Source: Desulfomarina profundi (GTDB lineage Bacteria > Desulfobacterota > Desulfobulbia > Desulfobulbales > Desulfocapsaceae). Taken from it: 64,000 bases of DNA. The DNA lies in NCBI RefSeq assembly GCF_019703855.1, contig NZ_AP024086.1:2562501-2626500 (forward strand), in the 5' to 3' direction. A program made the position numbers and the translations under genes. Below are positions 16,855 to 28,517 of this stretch, in pieces. Position 1 is the first letter of the stretch. The number at the start of each line of letters is the position of its first letter. The notes under the pieces are model-generated. The model had not been told where the DNA came from and searched no databases. It saw nothing but the letters and a program-made list of their open reading frames with translations.

Positions 16855-17910
16855 ATGAGTACCCCAGAAGAGATCTGCCCAACCAACTATAAAAAAATGT
16901 CCCCATTGCTGGAAAATATTCTCATATCGGGAAACAACTGCAGCCGGATCTCACCGGTCGGAAAAAAAATTACTTTTTCTCCCCTGCCGACATTTATAGT
17001 GTTCTTCTGCTTCTCAGCACTCTCTTTTCTCTTTCCTCTCCAGGCCTGTGCAGATGAGATACTCATACTCATGAGCGGTTCACATCCAGCCTATATTGAA
17101 GCCACGAGAGGCATCATGTCCGCTCTCAATACAGAAAAAGGTACAGGCGGCCCGAAAACTGTTCTGCAACACAATATTACAGAATTGGTCCTTCAGAACA
17201 GTGGAGACAACAACTACTGGAGACAGACAATTATTAATTATCGCCCGACCATGATTATAGCCGTTGGCAAGAGAGCCTTGAAAATTGCCACGGAACTGAA
17301 GGATATTCCAATTGTCCATGTCATGGTACCCGGAAGCACCCGACTCCACAACACAAGTGACACAATCAGCGGTGTTTCACTTGAAGTACCACCGCTGACC
17401 AGTCTGCAGAAATTACATAAAACTTTTCCTCATATCAAAAAAATCCTGGTTCCCTACAGCCCTGGATACAGCAATGAATTTATCACAAAAGCGAAAGAGG
17501 CCGCCAAACTTCTCCATATCACATTGACAACAGTTCCAATTGATTCTTCCCGGGAAGTCCTGACATTCCTCTCTTCCTGGAAAAAGAAAACAGATGCCAT
17601 ATGGATGATTCCCGACCCGACCATCCTGACACGGCAGACCGTTCCCGCCTTTCTCCAGTTCTCTATCAGTAACCGAGCCATCCTGCTTACCTTTGCCGAA
17701 AAATATATGAAAACCGGTGCTGGATTTGCAGTTTCTGCTGATATTTTTGACATGGGCAGGGAAGCGGGAACCATGGCCCTTGATATTCTCCGTAAGAATG
17801 GGCAAACTGACTATTCCCTGCAGGCTCCTCGCTCCATTCGTACCTATTACAATAGAGAATTGCTGAAAAAACTGGCAACTCTCTCAATAAAAACCGACAA
17901 TTTATTTTGA
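16855..17910 (+). CDS. ABC-type (TrpX-like) substrate-binding protein coupled to a sensor kinase
   Basis: 351 residues of the ABC_sub_bind family (periplasmic binding proteins related to TrpX/ABC sugar-type folds). A signal segment (FIVFFCFSALSFLFPLQACADE) precedes the mature domain, which shows IAVGKRALKIA, VMVPGS, HIKKILVPYSPGYSNEF and a closing YYNRELLKKL. The N-terminal extension of about 45 residues before the signal suggests a later start, for example ATG at 16897; neither site has a strong ribosome site. No transporter permease or ATPase is adjacent; instead its stop overlaps the start of a histidine kinase, so it probably presents a ligand to that sensor rather than feeding a transporter. 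Confidence 0.8.
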   Translation: MSTPEEICPTNYKKMSPLLENILISGNNCSRISPVGKKITFSPLPTFIVFFCFSALSFLFPLQACADEILILMSGSHPAYIEATRGIMSALNTEKGTGGPKTVLQHNITELVLQNSGDNNYWRQTIINYRPTMIIAVGKRALKIATELKDIPIVHVMVPGSTRLHNTSDTISGVSLEVPPLTSLQKLHKTFPHIKKILVPYSPGYSNEFITKAKEAAKLLHITLTTVPIDSSREVLTFLSSWKKKTDAIWMIPDPTILTRQTVPAFLQFSISNRAILLTFAEKYMKTGAGFAVSADIFDMGREAGTMALDILRKNGQTDYSLQAPRSIRTYYNRELLKKLATLSIKTDNLF

Positions 17911-19529
17911 CACCCGGAAAAATCAAAAAAAAGCTTGAAACGAGCTTTGCAGCCAGGGTGTTTGTGCTTCTTTCCACCGGCATGATTATTGCTGTTATCG
18001 GTCTCAACTTTTTTCTTTACAAACTCCAGGAAACCAGGCTCGAAAAACAGATCAAGGTGCAGGGCAAAAGCCTGACCAGGCTCCTGGCACATAATGCGGA
18101 ACTGGGTGTCTTCTCCGGAAGTGTTAAAATGTTGAAAGCTCCGGTTGAAGCTCTTCTCAGAGAACCGGAAGTAGAGGAAATACGTATTTATGACGAACAG
18201 TTTTCTCCTCTTTTAATCCGGCCGGACACCCTGCATAACCAGCATTCACCATGCGGAGTAAACACCACCAACAGCATACCAGCACCCGATAAGGATATCG
18301 TGATTGAAGGGAAAAACTGCTTTTCTTTCATTTCACCCATAACCATTGATATCAGTATAAATCCTGAGGAAGAACTATATTTTGAACCCAACGCAAAGTC
18401 GACCAACAAGCTTATCGGATATGTCAGCCTGGCACTTTCCAACAGACAGTTCCTCAGCGCCAAACGTGAACTTGTGTTGCAAAGTATCGTTCTTGTAGTC
18501 TGTTTTATCCTGATTACAGTACCGATTCTCTATATTGTCATCAAGGAAACCACTCTTCCCCTTCGCCGTCTCCTTGGCAGAATCAGAGAAACCATTCCCG
18601 GTGGTTCGGAAATAAGAAACGATATGGAACTGCTGGATTCAACTTTTGATACACTCGTTGCCGAAGTTGAAGAGGCCTTCGGTACCATCAACCAGCTCCG
18701 CGAACACCTGGAACAGAAAGTAAAAGAGAGAACCATCGAACTGGAACAGTCCAACAGGGAGTTGCAGCAGTCAATTACCGAATTGCAGCGGACTCAGATG
18801 CAGCTGGTACAGTCGGAGAAAATGGCCAACCTCGGTCTGCTGACTGCCGGGCTGGGCCATGAAATCAATAACGCACTCAACTATATCAGCGGCGCCGTTG
18901 TCCCGCTGCGCGAACTTTGCCTTGATATTTCACGAAAAGCTGAAAATGGAGAAACCGTTTCAACAAAAGAGAAAAAACAGCTGGAAACCCTGCTGAGGTA
19001 TACGGAGACCGGCGTCAAAAGGATATCATCATTTATCCAGGATCTCATGAGTTTTGCCAGGCCGGATGAGACGGAGTACAAGCTCATCGATATAAACAGA
19101 GAGCTGGATACGGCAACCAGATTGCTGTCCCTGAAAAGAGACGGTAATATCATCATCAAGACGAATTTCGGACCCCTGGAAAAGTTTCCAGCTCTCGACA
19201 ACCAGCTGGGTCAGGTCTTTCTCAATATACTCTTGAACGCCAAACAGGCGATAAAAGACGAAGGAACAATAACAATCACCACAAAATCATCAGAAAAAGA
19301 TATTACAATAATCATTTCGGACGATGGGTGTGGTATTGAAAAAAAGATTCTACCCTCTATTTTCGATCCTTTTTTTACAACCAAGGAACCTGGAAAAGGC
19401 ACAGGACTGGGACTGGGAATCTGCCAGACAATTATCAAAAAACATGGAGGAGAAATTACCGTTAAAAGTGAAACCGGCAAAGGTACCACTTTTACAATAA
19501 GGCTCCCGTTTTCAAAAATGCACCACTGA
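17907..19529 (+). CDS. Membrane sensor histidine kinase
   Basis: 540 residues starting at TTG, whose last two bases form part of the preceding stop (TTGA overlap). Layout: membrane helix at about 17-38, periplasmic domain to about 190, second helix (SIVLVVCFILITVPILYIVI), HAMP-like linker, coiled coil (EQKVKERTIELEQSNREL), then HisKA with GLGHEINNALNYISG carrying the phospho-His, N-box VFLNILLNAKQAI, and ATP-lid motifs DDGCGIEKKI and GTGLGLGICQTI. The class with GHEINN often controls sigma54 activators. No response regulator is adjacent, so its partner is elsewhere; the coupled binding protein is the probable signal receptor. Confidence 0.9.
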   Translation: MTPGKIKKKLETSFAARVFVLLSTGMIIAVIGLNFFLYKLQETRLEKQIKVQGKSLTRLLAHNAELGVFSGSVKMLKAPVEALLREPEVEEIRIYDEQFSPLLIRPDTLHNQHSPCGVNTTNSIPAPDKDIVIEGKNCFSFISPITIDISINPEEELYFEPNAKSTNKLIGYVSLALSNRQFLSAKRELVLQSIVLVVCFILITVPILYIVIKETTLPLRRLLGRIRETIPGGSEIRNDMELLDSTFDTLVAEVEEAFGTINQLREHLEQKVKERTIELEQSNRELQQSITELQRTQMQLVQSEKMANLGLLTAGLGHEINNALNYISGAVVPLRELCLDISRKAENGETVSTKEKKQLETLLRYTETGVKRISSFIQDLMSFARPDETEYKLIDINRELDTATRLLSLKRDGNIIIKTNFGPLEKFPALDNQLGQVFLNILLNAKQAIKDEGTITITTKSSEKDITIIISDDGCGIEKKILPSIFDPFFTTKEPGKGTGLGLGICQTIIKKHGGEITVKSETGKGTTFTIRLPFSKMHH

Positions 19530-19617: not shown

Positions 19618-20184
19618 TTAAAAACAACCTGTTTCTTCAGAAAATCCCGTCAAATCAATATTACTCGACCATTTTCCCAAATAAACGTCGTCAAAACCAT
19701 ATATTTTTTTATTTATCTGTCTCACCTTGCGAATTTCACCATCTTTTCTCCTGATACGAAAGAATACTTCCCAAGAGGGTATATTTCTGGGATCCTGCAG
19801 AGCTCTTCTTAATTCTTTTACGACCTCAACAAGATCTTCTTCTATTATAATAGTTAACAGGCGCCGTTCATTTTCATAAAAATACTCAGGTTTATATCCT
19901 GTCAATCTCTCACAAGAAGGAGACATGAAAATCAATTCTCCAGCAGGTGTGGTCCAATATTCACAAGTATACATATTTTGACTGACAATCCGACCGAACT
20001 CTTCACTGGCATGAATTTGTTCATCTTTTCCTTGAAGCAGTTTTTCAAACCTCTTTATTTTTGTTCTCAATTTTTCATTTTCTGCTTCCAGTTCTGTTAC
20101 TCGCTTGACTGTGTCGATGTTATCCAAACTGCCATCAGACAAACGAGAATCACCTTCTGAAAAGGTATTCTTTTGAGGTATCAT
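19618..20184 (-). CDS. Stand-alone PAS-domain protein
   Basis: 188 residues. Residues 25-60 form a coiled coil (RVTELEAENEKLRTKIKRFEKLL), and 65-180 a PAS domain (YWTTPAGELIFMSPSCERLTGYKPEYF, then FRIRRKDGEIRKVRQINKKIYG). No kinase, cyclase or DNA-binding domain follows, so it may be a sensory adaptor. It is transcribed opposite to the kinase at 17907-19529. Base use is more AT-rich than in the lipid operon, as for the genes that follow. Confidence 0.75.
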   Translation of the reverse strand: MIPQKNTFSEGDSRLSDGSLDNIDTVKRVTELEAENEKLRTKIKRFEKLLQGKDEQIHASEEFGRIVSQNMYTCEYWTTPAGELIFMSPSCERLTGYKPEYFYENERRLLTIIIEEDLVEVVKELRRALQDPRNIPSWEVFFRIRRKDGEIRKVRQINKKIYGFDDVYLGKWSSNIDLTGFSEETGCF

Positions 20185-20285: not shown

Positions 20286-20744
20286 TCAGGCAGCTGTTCC
20301 GGTAAAACTCAAAGCAAACTGCTTTATTCTGTCAACATGTGGTGTACTGATCTTCTCGCTTTGCTTGAGCACTATTTTTTCCAAAAATGCTATAGTCGCC
20401 AGATAATCTTCTACAGGGTCTCCAGTTGCTTTAATCATCCAATTATCTTCAAATTGAACATTTCCTGAATAATTATCATCCGTATCCATTTCCTCGCATG
20501 AATTTCCCTGTTCAAGATAGCAGGCCTGTTCACGTTTCATCGGCCCCCTCCCATCAAAAAGCCAATCAAGGGAATAATCAGTTTTCTCAGCTATTTTAAA
20601 AAACCACTCTTTAGGAATTTTATCGTTTCGAATTGCCGAGTATACGGCTTGACGATTAATTTTCAGGTAATCTGCCAACCCAGAATGTGATTGTGTTTGA
20701 GTAGCCTTGTAGAACCTTTCCAGAATTTCAGTAGTTTGACTCAT
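20286..20744 (-). CDS. CI-repressor-like helix-turn-helix regulator
   Basis: 152 residues. Residues 1-65 match the phage CI repressor DNA-binding domain: GLADYLKINRQAVYSAIRNDKIPKEWFFKIAEKTDYSLDWLFDG. The C-terminal part lacks the LexA-type Ser-Lys protease and is acidic, then helical (DYLATIAFLEKIVLKQSEK), perhaps for dimerisation. It is divergent from the sigma54 activator gene 226 bases away and may control it. No phage structural genes are near, so this is a domesticated or accessory regulator rather than an active prophage. Confidence 0.8.
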   Translation of the reverse strand: MSQTTEILERFYKATQTQSHSGLADYLKINRQAVYSAIRNDKIPKEWFFKIAEKTDYSLDWLFDGRGPMKREQACYLEQGNSCEEMDTDDNYSGNVQFEDNWMIKATGDPVEDYLATIAFLEKIVLKQSEKISTPHVDRIKQFALSFTGTAA

Positions 20745-20969: not shown

Positions 20970-22220
20970 ATGTTTACTCATCGTTATATTGCCAATTATG
21001 ACGCTCTCGGTATTCCAGAAGATATTACCCAAACAATTACACGTAGTTTTCAAAACAATCAGCAAAAAGACAATATTCCTTCTGGAAACAATATTAATCA
21101 ATTGAATTCATATAAAATTATTGGAAATTCAACCTCTATCCGGACCGTAAACGAATCAATTTCAAAACTGGCAAAAATGGACAGAGTTTCCGTACTGATA
21201 ACTGGAGAACCCGGTACAGGAAAAGAATTGATTGCCAGAGGAATCCACAATGGCAGCAAAAGGAAAAATAAACCTTTCGTGCCAATTAATTGTGCCGAAA
21301 TAAACCCTGATCTCATTCGCGGGGAACTGTTTGGATACGTAAAAGGAATATTTACAGGTGCAGGGGAGGATACCGATGGATGTTTTTTAAAGGCAGGAGA
21401 AGGCACTCTTGTCCTTGACGAAATCGGCGATCTTCCGCTCGAAGCACAGGGCATATTGCTCAGGGTTTTACAGGAAAGGCAAATCCGCAGGATCGGGGAT
21501 GCAAAAGAAACCCCTGTGAAATGCAGATTTATTTTTATAACCAATAAAAATCTTCGTGAATTAGTCAATTCCGGACATTTCAAGGAAGACCTCTACTACA
21601 GAATAACCCAGGGTGAAATATTATTCTCTCCACCTCTCAGAGAGAGACAGGAGGATAAATTGTATATTGCTGTTTACCTTCTTATAAAAATATCAGTAGA
21701 GCTCGGGTTCACAAATGAATCGTCTGTCTATATTTCTAATTCCTTTATTCGGGTAATCAACAAATATGAATTCCCAGGAAATATAAGAGAACTTGAGGGA
21801 ATCATTACCAGAATACTCATTCGCAACCAGACAGGACCGGTGACAGATACGGATTTTTATGGAAGCCTCAATCTGGAAAGGACAGATCACAGCCCACCCT
21901 CCAAACTCAGCAAAGACGATCCGGCAATAAAAATCTGGCAGAAAAAACTGCGAGACATCAGCGGCATCCTTTCCAAAAACAAGATTTTCATTGCCGAAAG
22001 TCTGGCCTGTTTAACAAAAAAGGAATTCAGCCAGAATGAATTTATTTCTCAAATGAAACGACGTACTCGTCTGCATGACAATACCCTGAGAAGATATCTC
22101 TCAATTTTGAAAAAACATAAATTTCTTACTCACAATAACGAAAAAACAAATAAAGTCAGATACAGGATTGCAGATCAGGAAGTACCTGGACTGATGAAAA
22201 ATGGGGGTCATCTACTTTGA
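20970..22220 (+). CDS. Sigma54-interacting AAA+ transcriptional activator with GIFTGA loop and non-Fis C-terminus
   Basis: 416 residues. The AAA+ domain spans about 48-285: Walker A GEPGTGKELIARGIH, sigma54-contact loop GYVKGIFTGAGED, Walker B TLVLDEIGDLP, sensor I ITNKNL, and arginine-finger region FKEDLYYRI. The contact loop has Ile where GAFTGA has Ala. There is no receiver domain, and the C-terminus is not a Fis helix-turn-helix but a winged-helix-like stretch (RTRLHDNTLRRYLSILKKHKFLTH). Such a protein may bind DNA differently or act through a partner such as the CI-like repressor next to it. The Walker A Pro replacing Ser is tolerated. Other ATG codons exist, but 20970 lies close before the AAA+ core. 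Confidence 0.87.
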   Translation: MFTHRYIANYDALGIPEDITQTITRSFQNNQQKDNIPSGNNINQLNSYKIIGNSTSIRTVNESISKLAKMDRVSVLITGEPGTGKELIARGIHNGSKRKNKPFVPINCAEINPDLIRGELFGYVKGIFTGAGEDTDGCFLKAGEGTLVLDEIGDLPLEAQGILLRVLQERQIRRIGDAKETPVKCRFIFITNKNLRELVNSGHFKEDLYYRITQGEILFSPPLRERQEDKLYIAVYLLIKISVELGFTNESSVYISNSFIRVINKYEFPGNIRELEGIITRILIRNQTGPVTDTDFYGSLNLERTDHSPPSKLSKDDPAIKIWQKKLRDISGILSKNKIFIAESLACLTKKEFSQNEFISQMKRRTRLHDNTLRRYLSILKKHKFLTHNNEKTNKVRYRIADQEVPGLMKNGGHLL

Positions 22221-22353: not shown

Positions 22354-23640
22354 TCAGATGATCACTGATCCCCCGGCCTTTTTTATTTCCTCCTCAATAT
22401 AATTCATGGAATAAAAAAGTATCTGGCCATACCTACAGTCTACACCGTCAAAGTTCCCATGTTTGATCAGAGCCTGGTTTCGGCAACCTCCTTTACACAG
22501 AGGTAAAAGAGAACATTGTCGGCATTTTTCCGGTAATAAACGATTGCACATGACAGCCTCCCTGTAAAAATCAATTCCCGTAACAACATCACCATAAGCC
22601 ATTTCCCCGGGTTGCAGACTTGGACAAGGCAGAACAAACCCGGCAGCATCAAAAACAAACCTGTGTTTCAACTCCGCCAGACATGTATTTACAGGTGGAG
22701 CGACAGGCGGAGACAGATTTCTCTTAACTGCTTCATGCTGTAACCAAACCTGTTTTTCCGGATCATCCAATCCACCCTTGAATTCATCGCTGTGCCGTTG
22801 AGCAAGAATGGGAGTAAACTGCACATCATCAATCGAAATGTCATTGTCAATAAAATCATCCAGCATTTCCGGTGCGCGCAAATAGGAATCATCCAACCCG
22901 TCATATTGATATTCAATTCTTATGGAAATATTTCCTGATATTTCTCTCAGATTTTTGACAATCACATCATATGTTCCCTGTCCATTCCTGCCCGGCCGCA
23001 AATAATCATGTAAATCTGCAGGCCCCGCAAAACTGACACGGAGTCGATCCAATCCGACTCTCTGCAGTTTTTCAACAGAGTTACTGCTTATCAAGGTTCC
23101 GTTTGTCGTTATCTGAAAGCTATACGGAATTCCTCTTTTTTCACAAAACGTTTTTCGTTTTTCAGCAATTTCCAAAATCAGGGAATGCTTCATCCATGGC
23201 TCACCACCGGAGTAATCATCTACAACCTCAACTGGCGATGTCTCCTCAATATGTTGAAAATAAAAATCATTTATTCTGTCTGCCGTTTCTCTATCCATGG
23301 AAATGCTGCTTTTTTCAATAATACAGTAACGACACCGGTTGTTACACTCTCCTGTTACCAGCATTTTTGAGCCAACGCTTCGTCCGTCATGAATCTGTTG
23401 CTGATACCAGTGCTGATACACTTGAAACTCATCTATATTATCTTCAACCCAAATATTCATCTCTACAAGTTTCTTTAACAACTCATTTTTTTTCCCCTTA
23501 TTTGTAACCAGCTCCCTGATATCATTTTCGGGGAGCAAAACCAGAGAGCCTGTTAATGTATTATAGATTGCACGATGGGATTTTCCCTGAAAGATACAAG
23601 CTTTTTCAAGATTGAAAATTGATGATTTATATTGTACCAT
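22354..23640 (-). CDS. Radical SAM/SPASM peptide-maturase candidate
   Basis: 428 residues. An N-terminal domain of about 90 residues (FNLEKACIFQGKSHRAIYNTL, LLPENDIREL) resembles the precursor-recognition regions of RiPP radical SAM enzymes. The core motif CNNRCRYC is at 99-106, followed by DYSGGEPWMKHSL and QITTNGTLIS. The SPASM region has NTCLAELKHRFVFDAAGFVLPCPS and CRQCSLLPLCKGGCRNQ with a final Cys, enough for two auxiliary clusters. The ATG has a strong AAGGAG site just downstream of a GC hairpin, and two short ORFs lie immediately upstream on the same strand. A TonB receptor is divergent at 24126. It probably installs a thioether or C-C crosslink in a short peptide, but the substrate is not proven. 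Confidence 0.82.
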   Translation of the reverse strand: MVQYKSSIFNLEKACIFQGKSHRAIYNTLTGSLVLLPENDIRELVTNKGKKNELLKKLVEMNIWVEDNIDEFQVYQHWYQQQIHDGRSVGSKMLVTGECNNRCRYCIIEKSSISMDRETADRINDFYFQHIEETSPVEVVDDYSGGEPWMKHSLILEIAEKRKTFCEKRGIPYSFQITTNGTLISSNSVEKLQRVGLDRLRVSFAGPADLHDYLRPGRNGQGTYDVIVKNLREISGNISIRIEYQYDGLDDSYLRAPEMLDDFIDNDISIDDVQFTPILAQRHSDEFKGGLDDPEKQVWLQHEAVKRNLSPPVAPPVNTCLAELKHRFVFDAAGFVLPCPSLQPGEMAYGDVVTGIDFYREAVMCNRLLPEKCRQCSLLPLCKGGCRNQALIKHGNFDGVDCRYGQILFYSMNYIEEEIKKAGGSVII

Positions 23641-23654
23641 TACACGGCTCCTTT

Positions 23655-23682
23655 CCGGACAGATCCACCAGAACCTGTCCGG
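23655..23682 (-). promoter_or_regulatory. Perfect 8-bp GC hairpin between small ORFs and the radical SAM gene
   Basis: CCGGACAG and CTGTCCGG flank a 12-base loop and are followed closely by AAGGAG and the ATG of the radical SAM gene. There is no U-run, so it looks like an mRNA-processing or partial read-through element that lowers expression of the enzyme relative to the upstream peptides, a common arrangement in RiPP operons. Confidence 0.6.
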
Positions 23683-23691
23683 TTATTTTTT

Positions 23692-23829
23692 TTACATGCG
23701 CCCCAGGGAAACAGAAGCCTCACCGAGAATTAATCCACGTAAAGGCAACTTCCGGGCACGTGCTGTTTCCAGATCAAAACGCACTTGCAGGACCAAATCT
23801 GCAGCAAAACAGTTGCGTTTTATTGACAT
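23692..23829 (-). CDS. Candidate 45-residue precursor peptide (overlapping alternative)
   Basis: A 45-codon ORF starting MSIKRNCFAADLVLQ and ending GEASVSLGRM, with AAAAGG five bases before its ATG. Charged middle (VRFDLETARARKLPLRG) and a Gly/Ser-containing tail would suit a leader plus small core, but it has only one Cys. It ends just before the GC hairpin. It overlaps the 26-residue ORF in another frame, so at most one is likely to be the main product. No family recognised. Confidence 0.35.
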   Translation of the reverse strand: MSIKRNCFAADLVLQVRFDLETARARKLPLRGLILGEASVSLGRM

Positions 23830-23854
23830 AACAACCTTTTTTAAGAATAACCAT
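23774..23854 (-). CDS. Candidate 26-residue Cys-rich peptide upstream of the radical SAM gene
   Basis: A 26-codon ORF starting MVILKKGCYV, with a consensus AAGGAG six bases before the ATG, the best ribosome site in this stretch. It contains three Cys, two adjacent (LFCCRFGP), spaced so that thioether formation by a SPASM enzyme is conceivable. It is too short to be recognised by similarity and overlaps the 45-codon ORF. The good site and position make it a credible precursor, but comparison with relatives is needed to choose. Confidence 0.4.
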   Translation of the reverse strand: MVILKKGCYVNKTQLFCCRFGPASAF

Positions 23855-24125
23855 TTTACTCTCCTTATTGTTTATGATTCAGGTTGAGCATGCTCTTGAC
23901 AAACGTATACTTGCACTATCCATACCAAGAGCTCTTCTTTTGGTATATTTATATTTTACAAAACATAAACAGCTATAATAAATGGAACTATTCTTTTCAT
24001 TTTTGCCCCCTTTTTCTTATTGCACTTTCTGAAGTTATGACTTTATGTAAAATACAGGCAAACAAGTTGTAACTTAAACAGCAAAAGTTGCTTCTTTATA
24101 GAAATTTTTATTTACAAAATCGACT
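23855..24125. promoter_or_regulatory. AT-rich divergent intergenic region
   Basis: About 270 AT-rich bases between the minus-strand peptide/radical SAM genes and the plus-strand TonB receptor gene. Promoters for both directions are expected here. I see no riboswitch fold, no clear inverted operator and no credible coding frame. Confidence 0.3.
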
Positions 24126-26033
24126 ATGAACCTTAAAGCGCTCCTGCAGTTTTCAACAGTTTCAATCATCATTTTTTTTTGCAGTTTTCCCGTTTTGGCG
24201 CAGGAAAACAGTCTTTCCATGTTTTTTGATGACGAAATGCTGGTGCAGACTGCGTCGCGGCACTCCAAACCACTGACCGAGGTTGCGGAAAACCTCACTG
24301 TTGTCAATGGAACCGCCATAAAGGCAATGAATGCCCATACCCTGTATGAAGTACTCGCTCGTGTACCCGGACTCTTTGTCACATATGACGGGATGGATTT
24401 TGGCAGCGCTGCTTCCCTGACCATTCACGGTGCAAGCAGCGAAGACCTGCACCGAATCCTGGTTTTACTGGATGGAGTCAGGTTAAACCTGTCTTCAAAT
24501 GGCAATGCGATTCTGAACGGTATCCCGGTATCAATCATTGAAAGACTTGAAATCATCAAAGGCCCCGCCTCTTCAAGCTGGGGTTCAGCCATGGGTGGTG
24601 TCGTCAATATTATCACCAAAGCAGCATGGAAAAAAGGTCATGAGGGGCAGGTATACGGTTCCTACGGCACTGCGGACAGCCGTGAAGTGAGAATGGAACT
24701 CTCCGGCAAGGGAACGGATGCGGGCTACTATCTTTTTGCCGGTAACCAACATTCGGACGGACTGACAGAGGACAGGTTCTTTAACAACACTCAGGTCTAT
24801 GTCAAGGGGAACGCGACACTCAAACCGGGTATCCGGCTGGTGTTGAGTGGAGGCAGTTTCCGGCCCGAATGGAAAAATCTCAATTTTCCCCCAGCGGATC
24901 TCATGATTACGGCAGAAAACCGAAATGGTTTTTTCACCAGTGGTCTGGACCAGTCAGTGGGAAATCTGCTCAGTTTTCATTTAAGCGGCGGGATCATCGC
25001 CAGAAATTACACAAAAAAGTACAACGTACTTTCGGGGCTGATTGGTACGCCGGATGAAACATTGTCGAAACAGACCTGGCGGGAAAAAAGTTATAACCTG
25101 AACAGTAGACTGGTTTACAGTGACGACATTCATACCTTCGTTCTGGGAGCCGAATATGCTTATAACAGACTTGAAACCTCTGTGGATTCAACCGCCACAG
25201 CTGTTGTCGCCTGGGGAACATCATCGTCCAGTGAGCTTCCACCGGCCACCAATAAAACTGTTGGTGTCTATCTAAACGATACCCTGTCCTGGGGCAGGTT
25301 CACCCTGACTCCTGGAGTTCGCTATGACTATAACTCCATCAGTAATGATTTCATCAGTCCCAGTCTCGGACTGGTTTACAGGGCAACCGAGAACAACAGG
25401 CTGCGAATAACTGCGGCCCGTGGTTTTTCCACACCCTACTTTTCCCTGCTGAGAGATATCTCCCAGAATCAATCCTCTAATCCGAACCTTAAACCGGAAG
25501 AAATATGGTCAGTTCAAGCTGGCCTGGAAACCAAGTCCATTCCTCTCCTGCTCTGTAAAACAACACTTTTTTTTCATAATATCGACGAGATCTGGGAGTA
25601 CAGCCCCAACAGTGGCCAAATTGAAAATGGCGACAACACTAAAAGGTCCGGCTTTGAAATTGAAGTGGAATCTGTTCCTTTCCACGGCCTGAGTGTGACG
25701 GGCGGATTCACCTATACCATGGATGATCCCGATAACACATCAAGTGAAGATTTTTATAACACCCAGATAACTGTGAACTACACCAACCCGGAACTTTTTT
25801 CTCTCCAGCTGTTCGGCACAGCCTTAAAATGGCTGAAAGGAACGACTTTTGAGGCGGAAGAAGATTTCATATGGGATCTGAATATCAGCAGACACTTCCC
25901 GTCCGTTTCATTTGCTTCAGGCTTTGATCTTTTTATGACAGTGCACAACCTCTTTAATGGTGATCAATACTGGTCGAGTTTCTATCCCAATCCTGAACGA
26001 TGGGTTGAGGCCGGATTGAAATTTCGCTTTTAA
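24126..26033 (+). CDS. TonB-dependent outer-membrane receptor
   Basis: 635 residues: signal peptide (FSTVSIIIFFCSFPVLAQE), a TonB-box-like segment (EMLVQTASRHSKPLTEV), plug domain (LYEVLARVPGLFVTYDG, IHGASSEDLHRILVLLDGVR, IERLEIIKGPASSSWGSAMGGVVNIITK), and a 22-strand barrel ending in Phe (VEAGLKFRF). Its short length resembles vitamin B12 (BtuB) and small siderophore receptors. The substrate is unknown; no cobalamin riboswitch is seen upstream. It is divergent from the peptide-maturase locus, so import of a metal or a modified peptide linked to that locus is a possible but unproven connection. Confidence 0.9.
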   Translation: MNLKALLQFSTVSIIIFFCSFPVLAQENSLSMFFDDEMLVQTASRHSKPLTEVAENLTVVNGTAIKAMNAHTLYEVLARVPGLFVTYDGMDFGSAASLTIHGASSEDLHRILVLLDGVRLNLSSNGNAILNGIPVSIIERLEIIKGPASSSWGSAMGGVVNIITKAAWKKGHEGQVYGSYGTADSREVRMELSGKGTDAGYYLFAGNQHSDGLTEDRFFNNTQVYVKGNATLKPGIRLVLSGGSFRPEWKNLNFPPADLMITAENRNGFFTSGLDQSVGNLLSFHLSGGIIARNYTKKYNVLSGLIGTPDETLSKQTWREKSYNLNSRLVYSDDIHTFVLGAEYAYNRLETSVDSTATAVVAWGTSSSSELPPATNKTVGVYLNDTLSWGRFTLTPGVRYDYNSISNDFISPSLGLVYRATENNRLRITAARGFSTPYFSLLRDISQNQSSNPNLKPEEIWSVQAGLETKSIPLLLCKTTLFFHNIDEIWEYSPNSGQIENGDNTKRSGFEIEVESVPFHGLSVTGGFTYTMDDPDNTSSEDFYNTQITVNYTNPELFSLQLFGTALKWLKGTTFEAEEDFIWDLNISRHFPSVSFASGFDLFMTVHNLFNGDQYWSSFYPNPERWVEAGLKFRF

Positions 26034-26196: not shown

Positions 26197-26943
26197 TCAC
26201 AAATCCATTTCCCGCCTGATCTCCCGCCACAGTTTCCTGTAAGCCTTTGCTGCTGCACTTCGTTCTGCATAAGACAAAACAGGTTCTCTGTGCAGACCCA
26301 TTTTTTCTATGTCAGTGGAGAACGGAATCGATTTCTGCAAAAATTTCCTGTATTTTTTCTTCAGTCTCACCATGGTTTCATTGTGAAGTTTTTTACTTCT
26401 CTGTACCATGGAGAAAAACGGTAACAGTTTATTTTTCTGATATTTTTTCTCCCTGAAAAACCCGAACAACTGTTCCAGGGTTCGTTCGGAAAGGGTTGTC
26501 GGGATCACCGGAACCACAATCCTGTCCGACACCCTGAACACATTCTCCGAAAGAAGAGAAATATTGGGAGGGCAGTCAAGGATAAGAACATCATAATCAT
26601 TTTTTACACTCTTCAAGGCCTTTTTCAGACGGGATCTGCTATTTTTCATTCTGGAGAGAAAAATATCAAAATCACGGTAACTCATGTTGGCGGGCAGTAA
26701 ATCCAGATTCTCGAAATCACTGGCACGAATAGCTCCCGTAAAACAATCAACATCCTTGAAAAAGGCCTGTTTTTTCAACTTTCTGGACGGTTTCACCCGA
26801 AAATAAAACCCGGACGCCCCCTGGGGATCCAGGTCGCAGAGCAACACGCGATAGCCGTCCATGGCGCAACTGTAGGCGAGATTGACGGAAGTGGCCGTCT
26901 TGCCAACACCGCCCTTATTACTGTAGCAGGCTACTATTTTCAT
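26197..26943 (-). CDS. ParA/MinD-family ATPase
   Basis: 248 residues. The deviant Walker A YSNKGGVGKTATSVN with signature Lys is at the N-terminus, followed by CDLDPQGASGFYF (Walker A') and VLILDCPPNISLL (Walker B). It lacks the N-terminal helix-turn-helix of plasmid ParA, and no ParB gene is near, so it belongs to the orphan ParA-like group that positions cargo. Its start overlaps the stop of the CHAD gene by 4 bases, suggesting that cargo is polyphosphate-related. The insertion FRVKPSRKLKKQAFF is unusually basic. Confidence 0.9.
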   Translation of the reverse strand: MKIVACYSNKGGVGKTATSVNLAYSCAMDGYRVLLCDLDPQGASGFYFRVKPSRKLKKQAFFKDVDCFTGAIRASDFENLDLLPANMSYRDFDIFLSRMKNSRSRLKKALKSVKNDYDVLILDCPPNISLLSENVFRVSDRIVVPVIPTTLSERTLEQLFGFFREKKYQKNKLLPFFSMVQRSKKLHNETMVRLKKKYRKFLQKSIPFSTDIEKMGLHREPVLSYAERSAAAKAYRKLWREIRREMDL

Positions 26944-28517
26944 TCTGACAGTCCTTTGACTTGATGTTCAAAAAGTTCCTGAAAAGCCGCGTGAACCTTC
27001 TCGGTATCAAACCTGGCAAAATTTTCCATTACCAGATCTCTCTCCCGGCATTGCAACTGGTAGAGCATGGCAGTAAGAGCACCTATGGCCTCGGCCATTT
27101 TTATTCCCTTACGACTCCGTTTCATCTTTTCTTCGAAAAACTCAGAGGGAAAGCGCTGCTGCACAGAATAATCGTTAAATCTTCCGAGATTATCCTGCAG
27201 TCTTTTCAGGGAACGAATGAGTTTTTTCATTTTTTTCCCGGCAAAAAACGGAGTGGAAAACTCCATGAGATAGCGAAGTTTTTTACACTCTATACGCAGT
27301 TCATGAACAACCGCATCTTCTGTGCGGGCATCAATTGACCGGGCAATCCTGCAGACCTTTTTATACCGTTTTACAATACGCTTTGCCGCAAAGACGGATG
27401 ACACTCTCCTTTTCTGTCTACCATCTGACAGGTTGGATGGATCACTGAACAGTTCTTTCCAGGTATCCATACTCTTTCTATACTCCTTGCTCTTGAGTAC
27501 CCTGCAGAAAGCACGGTGCTCGGTTTTTCTTACACGCCGCAGATGAGTAAACAGTATTTCCAGCCCTTCGTGACTGCTTTCCGGTACCAGGCTGAAATAT
27601 CGATCCCGGTCAAGGAGATATACGTCCAGATCCCTCAGACGATTTGTCTTTTTCATCAGCTCACCGAATTCCTTTTTCAGGCGGGCTGTCTCCTTACTTT
27701 CATAGATTCCGCTGAAAAGGCTCAGTGCCGAACGTATTTTACGAAAACTCACCCGATAATCGTGTAGAAATTCCGTATCCAGGTCGGCTATAATACCAGG
27801 CTCATTCTGCTCGGCAACTCCGAGAGATGTCCTGATTATAGTGGTAACACTCTTTTTAATATCATCCGTCCCGGAAATATCCAGCCGGGGTTTTACCGAG
27901 TAATCCCTTGTCTGAATACCCAGCTGTGCATAAACCGCTAGGGGATCACTGTTTTCCTGTGCGCCTTCAGCCAGCAGCCAGGAGACAAGTATTCCATGAG
28001 TCTTTTCGTATCCCCGCAGGATTCGGGTTACCCCGAACAGAAGTGATTTATTCTTTCGTCTGAAGGAAAAAAATGACAACCGAACCCTGGTCTTGACCTC
28101 ATCATCAAGAACCAGCCCTTTATCTTGTCTTATCTTCAGTCCGGCCACGGGATTGATCGCTCTGATTTCCGAGACACCTTTCAGATTATCGCGGACGGGA
28201 CCACTCTTCAGTTCCGGCAGGAACGACCAGGAATAATCCACCGGCTGTTCAAAAATGTCTCCTGAACGCCAGTCAATAAGAAGCAGACGGTCGTTGATCG
28301 AAAACAGCAGTTTTCCGGACTTTCTCACCTCTTCAGTGAATGTATCCAGCAACCTGCCTTCCTCAAACAATCCGGCAGTTACTTCGAGGGAGAACGGACT
28401 CTTACCAATTTTCAGGGGTTTGGATTCCCTTATTATTTTATCATCTGGAAAGGTAAAAACAAAAGAAGACGATTCCATAACAGCTTTCCCGGTAAAAGAA
28501 AACATCTCTGCCACCAA
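26940..28517 (-). CDS. CHAD-domain protein with N-terminal extension
   Basis: 525 residues. The C-terminal half (about 235-520) is a CHAD domain: FLHDYRVSFRKIRSALSLF and VVHELRIECKKLRYLMEF are the two repeated His/Arg/Lys-rich helices that bind inorganic polyphosphate. The N-terminal 230 residues are not a recognisable CYTH domain, though the strand-rich charged pattern (VRLSFFSFRRKNKSLLFGV) would fit a derived one. CHAD proteins localise to polyphosphate granules. Coupled translation with a ParA ATPase gene suggests granule positioning. Starts at residues 5 or 14 (MESSSFVFTFP) are also possible. Confidence 0.83.
   Translation of the reverse strand: MVAEMFSFTGKAVMESSSFVFTFPDDKIIRESKPLKIGKSPFSLEVTAGLFEEGRLLDTFTEEVRKSGKLLFSINDRLLLIDWRSGDIFEQPVDYSWSFLPELKSGPVRDNLKGVSEIRAINPVAGLKIRQDKGLVLDDEVKTRVRLSFFSFRRKNKSLLFGVTRILRGYEKTHGILVSWLLAEGAQENSDPLAVYAQLGIQTRDYSVKPRLDISGTDDIKKSVTTIIRTSLGVAEQNEPGIIADLDTEFLHDYRVSFRKIRSALSLFSGIYESKETARLKKEFGELMKKTNRLRDLDVYLLDRDRYFSLVPESSHEGLEILFTHLRRVRKTEHRAFCRVLKSKEYRKSMDTWKELFSDPSNLSDGRQKRRVSSVFAAKRIVKRYKKVCRIARSIDARTEDAVVHELRIECKKLRYLMEFSTPFFAGKKMKKLIRSLKRLQDNLGRFNDYSVQQRFPSEFFEEKMKRSRKGIKMAEAIGALTAMLYQLQCRERDLVMENFARFDTEKVHAAFQELFEHQVKGLSE

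Follow-up and report, generated by a model that had tools for sequence, protein, structure and literature searches.

A probable, strongly diverged geopeptide locus in the genome of Desulfomarina profundi

The stretch of Desulfomarina profundi DNA analysed here (64,000 nucleotides, hereafter the window) contains what sequence comparison indicates is very probably a strongly diverged geopeptide locus, not a new kind of RiPP locus. It shares with the geopeptide family (TIGR04229/TIGR04280) the order peptide-hairpin-maturase, a VxLxxG...CC peptide, an enzyme of RRE-radical SAM-SPASM type and neighbours of the TonB and, some 4 kb away, PF04392 types. That this identity holds together with the pairing of this particular peptide with this particular enzyme is a stricter claim, which we still consider likely. 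The initial annotation had proposed a possible new RiPP locus with two small overlapping ORFs of no known precursor family. There is good support for the association of a SPASM maturase with a small Cys-rich precursor; novelty in kind has to be given up. The precursor pattern is that of the geopeptides, already present in NCBIfam as TIGR04229/TIGR04280, and a new precursor family was rejected on these grounds. Only the 26-codon ORF matters, the 45-codon ORF being a chance overlap. All the described elements could be confirmed: the 428-codon radical SAM/SPASM frame, the 26-codon Cys-rich ORF with its AAGGAG, the overlapping 45-codon ORF, the hairpin ahead of the enzyme and the divergent TonB receptor. 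The features of the region are the following.

16855-17910, plus strand: PF04392 periplasmic ligand-binding protein, putative sensor partner (Pfam, 74.7 bits)
17907-19529, plus strand: sCache histidine kinase, overlapping the PF04392 gene
20970-22220, plus strand: sigma-54 activator without receiver domain, convergent with the maturase, of uncertain membership (Pfam/NCBIfam)
22354-23640, minus strand: radical SAM/SPASM maturase of 428 aa, with RRE-like N-terminus, CX3CX2C and seven-Cys SPASM (best NCBIfam model TIGR04280)
23648-23654, minus strand: Shine-Dalgarno sequence of the maturase, AAAGGAG
23655-23682, minus strand: hairpin with a 12-bp stem between precursor and maturase, abutting the maturase Shine-Dalgarno sequence (folding z -3.1)
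23692-23829, minus strand: 45-codon ORF, in another frame, overlapping the 26-codon ORF
23774-23854, minus strand: ORF26, putative precursor peptide of 26 aa, MVILKKGCYVNKTQLFCCRFGPASAF, with a hydrophobic VILKKG (putative recognition strand) and then a putative core with CC (profile of relatives' precursors)
23861-23866, minus strand: Shine-Dalgarno sequence of ORF26, AAGGAG, 6 nt before the ATG (read directly)
24126-26033, plus strand: BtuB-like TonB-dependent receptor of the geopeptide-linked clade, divergent (bit scores, linkage statistics)

The genes of the sensor kinase and the sigma-54 activator are separated by those of a PAS-only protein (19618-20184) and a CI-repressor-type HTH protein (20286-20744). 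Beyond the receptor, at 26197-28517, a CHAD-domain protein adjoins a ParA-type ATPase.

The best NCBIfam model for the maturase is, by a wide margin, TIGR04280 (205.9 bits over residues 22-404), followed by CefB (NF038107, 130.2 bits), TIGR04463 (125 bits) and PapB (NF047865, 113 bits). These next-best models describe maturases of Cys-rich substrates, and the enzyme falls far below their cutoffs (340-600 bits). It does not reach the TIGR04280 cutoff of 400 bits either, and is thus not an equivalog as curated, whereas six relatives tested, from the order of the window and from other clades, score 475-620 bits. Searches of the order, class and phylum returned no relative with more than 35% identity, the best in class and phylum being at 34-35%, and the maturase is absent at E 1e-20 from the other genomes of its genus that we examined. 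All ten cluster cysteines are kept (C99/103/106 and C320/339/373/376/382/386/402, invariant in 97 relatives). The cysteine of the linker before the SPASM domain, a feature seen in this comparison and not a curated criterion of TIGR04280, occurs in 89% of the 97 relatives and is deleted here. The aspartate of the DG motif, otherwise 99% conserved, is replaced (D205A), and in total 27 of 76 strongly conserved family columns differ. In the tree the maturase sits on a long branch (2.61) with unresolved placement; its position beside locus L007 is a possible artefact. That locus (G044:C68) has itself a far-diverged maturase on a long branch, has no linked TonB receptor and carries a candidate single-Cys peptide, MLKVVKKGHGKSAKATIVEACTSRTR, downstream of the maturase instead of upstream.

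The predicted structure of the maturase (mean pLDDT 82) has as nearest folds CteB (5wgg, 5why; residues 7-422 of the model, Z 24.6-25.1) and TigE (8vpo, Z 24.9), and ChlB and anSME also match its core. Residues 1-90 can be read as RRE-like from the CteB and TigE alignments and from the order of beta-hairpin and helix in the model. CteB, the SCIFF ranthipeptide maturase, is also the nearest solved relative by sequence, at about 15-18% identity. The two enzymes share the three-domain fold and a seven-Cys SPASM domain, CteB being one Aux I ligand short. The SCIFF enzyme model TIGR03974 gives the maturase only 73 bits against a cutoff of 425, and six Cys are spread over the 45 residues of the SCIFF peptide, against three over the 26 of the window's peptide.

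The case for the precursor starts from the relatives. Just upstream of nearly all related maturases, in Desulfobacterota and Nitrospirota, lies an ORF of 28-45 aa with the pattern (V/I)(V/I)(V/L)xxG-x(6-12)-CC. An ORF led by a Shine-Dalgarno sequence, with a hydrophobic strand, a G and then CC, was found in 91 of 117 related loci, some of which are one contig reached through two collections, so that distinct precursors number 78. At least seven more precursors were recovered by profile, together with several lysine/alanine-rich CC forms. Conservation of CC is partly built in where this pattern served for collection; the profile matches and the lysine/alanine-rich forms, gathered without that filter, nonetheless show it. 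The curated model TIGR04229 matched one of eight upstream precursors tested from the order of the window, at 21.2 bits for a cutoff of 30. Variants were also seen. Five Nitrospirota loci (L039, L041, L072, L081 and L089) have, upstream of the maturase, precursor candidates with histone-H1-like lysine/alanine-rich leaders and a short terminal CC core, and L107 has a tandem pair of geopeptide-type precursors ahead of one maturase. No precursor was found in L002 (G055:C50), where the expected place upstream of the maturase is taken by a 125-aa ORF that resembles, judged by eye, a PIN-domain toxin.

ORF26 has the precursor features: it is short, led by a Shine-Dalgarno sequence, upstream of the maturase, and carries the hydrophobic strand, the G and the CC. 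It departs from the family in having no leading residues, no Asp or Glu (common in relatives) and a third Cys. When a profile was built from these 78 precursors, with the window's own left out, ORF26 ranked first among the 1,122 ORFs of the window, with a weak score (8.0 bits, E 0.17) that was reached by 23 of 5,000 residue shuffles of ORF26. True members score 6.3-42.9 bits by profiles built without themselves or near relatives, and the score of ORF26 is within this range, close to its lower end. Profile-profile alignment (hhalign) to the precursor family put ORF26 in the expected register, with P 4.6e-5. Among 4,000 dinucleotide shuffles of the 485-nt interval, 2% contained an ATG ORF of at least 20 codons with a Shine-Dalgarno sequence at 6 nt, and none contained the family-type motif with such a sequence, this motif having been defined only after the family and the window had been looked at. 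The 26-codon ORF, like the hairpin, is beyond the ordinary level of chance. TIGR04229 did not match ORF26. A profile search of the whole genome for further precursors found none and is uninformative, since it missed ORF26 too. None of these scores is conclusive alone, and it is their combination with position, Shine-Dalgarno sequence and neighbours that makes a diverged geopeptide the best reading of ORF26.

The 45-codon ORF does not share these properties. It lies inside the interval, ending 51 nt ahead of the maturase, as a real precursor might, but its Shine-Dalgarno sequence is weak, it has no match in the precursor family (hhalign P 0.73), and it is unremarkable in length because an ORF of at least 45 codons arises in 40% of the 4,000 shuffles. 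We rejected it as precursor; the chance that it is one after all seems to us very remote. Conservation of the ORFs upstream of maturase homologues was assessed at the level of the family, close homologues of the maturase not having been found, and at this level the 26-codon ORF is conserved and the 45-codon ORF is not.

The hairpin between peptide and enzyme is another shared element. The 133-nt spacer of the window folds at -50 kcal/mol (z -3.1), and most relatives have a hairpin at the same place; their median folding z is -3.1 between the genes, compared with -0.7 for the sequence upstream and -0.2 for the interior of the maturase gene. Many of the hairpins between the genes are terminator-like, with a T-run (42/64 vs 0/64). 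The one in the window lacks a T-run on its coding strand, and a search of Rfam returned no match.

Outside the peptide and the enzyme, the locus is tied to a specific receptor clade. The receptor of the window scores about 240-485 bits against the maturase-linked receptors of other genomes, versus 32-50 bits against the three further receptors encoded in the same genome. Across 258 genomes of the order, 65 encode the maturase, 65 the receptor clade and 58 both (Fisher P 1e-41, which overstates the case, as genomes share descent; adjacency is independent of this value). Within 3.5 kb of a maturase lie 60 of the 74 receptors of the linked clade. Of these, 59 precede the maturase on its own strand; the window provides the single divergent case in its order. 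The divergent arrangement is usual in Geobacter-type loci. With only 3-11 Plug-domain genes per genome, we estimate that adjacency by chance would be near 1%. In locus L174 (G028:C1:2652811-2655127) a receptor of the linked clade is followed only by a C-terminal piece of maturase (open frame of 144 aa), apparently a broken system.

The PF04392 periplasmic protein was found in 53 of the 55 loci with enough flank, and in 50 of 57 related loci a kinase is adjacent to it or fused with it. Against a profile built from locus-linked PF04392 proteins other than that of the window, the protein of the window scores 259 bits and the other four PF04392 proteins of the same genome 18-128 bits. The PF04392/kinase pair at 16855-19529 is thus the closest in type within the genome, but stands at least 4.1 kb from the maturase, beyond the gene of the sigma-54 activator. 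Such an activator occupies a similar place in a few Geobacter-type loci, and a search for sigma-54 promoters near the operon gave only matches at chance level. The neighbours include no exporter or protease shared by most loci (an MFS gene was seen in 7 of 80) and no recurrent immunity gene. The window has all the parts of the module, rearranged. As far as could be checked, this wider module of clade-specific receptor, PF04392 with mostly a kinase, and hairpin is new: no paper was found for 'geopeptide' or 'TIGR04280' in the literature searched. Haft and Basu (2011) reportedly did earlier work on the geopeptide family.

How such a module might work can be approached through related enzymes. 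The leader forms a beta-strand when bound to the RRE of CteB (PMC8326336). Aux I of CteB is open at one site, where a substrate cysteine was bound, whereas in SuiB a linker cysteine closes the Aux I site (PMC6231123). From these findings we infer a recognition strand in the VxLxxG stretch, a core in the CC region and, for most geopeptide maturases, use of the linker cysteine at Aux I. The enzyme of the window would differ: the usual linker cysteine is missing and its Aux I cluster probably has an open ligand site. The VILKKG strand would then dock on the RRE-like N-terminal domain, the enzyme would generate the 5'-deoxyadenosyl radical, and the sulphur of a cysteine (residue 7, 17 or 18) would be joined to a backbone or side-chain carbon. 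Cys-thioether chemistry of the putative product is somewhat favoured. The hairpin might hold the level of the enzyme under that of the peptide. Once finished, the peptide might leave the cell, either as such or bound to a metal or another ligand, be recaptured via the dedicated receptor and be sensed by the PF04392/kinase pair. Uptake and sensing are suggested by the fixed neighbours, and we place this loop of export, uptake and sensing slightly short of an even chance.

Other explanations must be weighed against this scenario. The maturase could be a drifting orphan and ORF26 the remnant of an eroding geopeptide gene without working product. The long branch, the score below the family cutoff, the 27 changed columns, the absence from other genomes of the genus and the short, atypical precursor all point this way. 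But the 428-codon frame is intact, the ten cluster cysteines are kept, both genes have good Shine-Dalgarno sequences, and hairpin, receptor and sensor have all been retained. We regard decay as unlikely.

The product of the locus need not be the ligand of the receptor. The latter is BtuB-like (128 bits with the TonB-B12 model, below cutoff), and with neither exporter nor protease recurrent it might import a metal chelate or a corrinoid, the modified peptide acting inside the cell or in the periplasm as cofactor, chaperone or regulator of this import. This alternative has a real though minority share of the probability, and is at odds with a receptor clade that accompanies the maturase in a nearly one-to-one manner, as would a receptor dedicated to the product and as generic B12 receptors would not be expected to do. 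Antimicrobial activity is common among small crosslinked Cys peptides, as established for sactipeptides (PMC6231123), and the putative product could also have it, with the receptor as its entry port or immunity partner. We find this improbable, with no recurrent immunity gene or exporter among the neighbours and with a producer's sensor kinase and receptor better fitting scavenging or signalling.

The geopeptide module may be an unrecognised uptake-and-sensing circuit of Desulfobacterota and Nitrospirota, built around a secreted, radical-crosslinked CC metallophore or signal, in which the enzyme and peptide of the window changed together towards a different crosslink. This is a tentative proposal, which we hold less probable than not. 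In it, a ribosomal CC peptide would have its own TonB receptor and sensor kinase, and the variant of the window's lineage would combine an open Aux I site with no acidic acceptor. Geopeptides are named in the profile library and have no described function in the literature searched. The near-constant receptor clade, the PF04392 protein, usually with a kinase, and the hairpin or terminator give them a testable role in anaerobic bacteria, as something taken up and sensed. The variant of the window, in which enzyme and peptide have both changed, would offer a natural contrast for the residues that set the crosslink.
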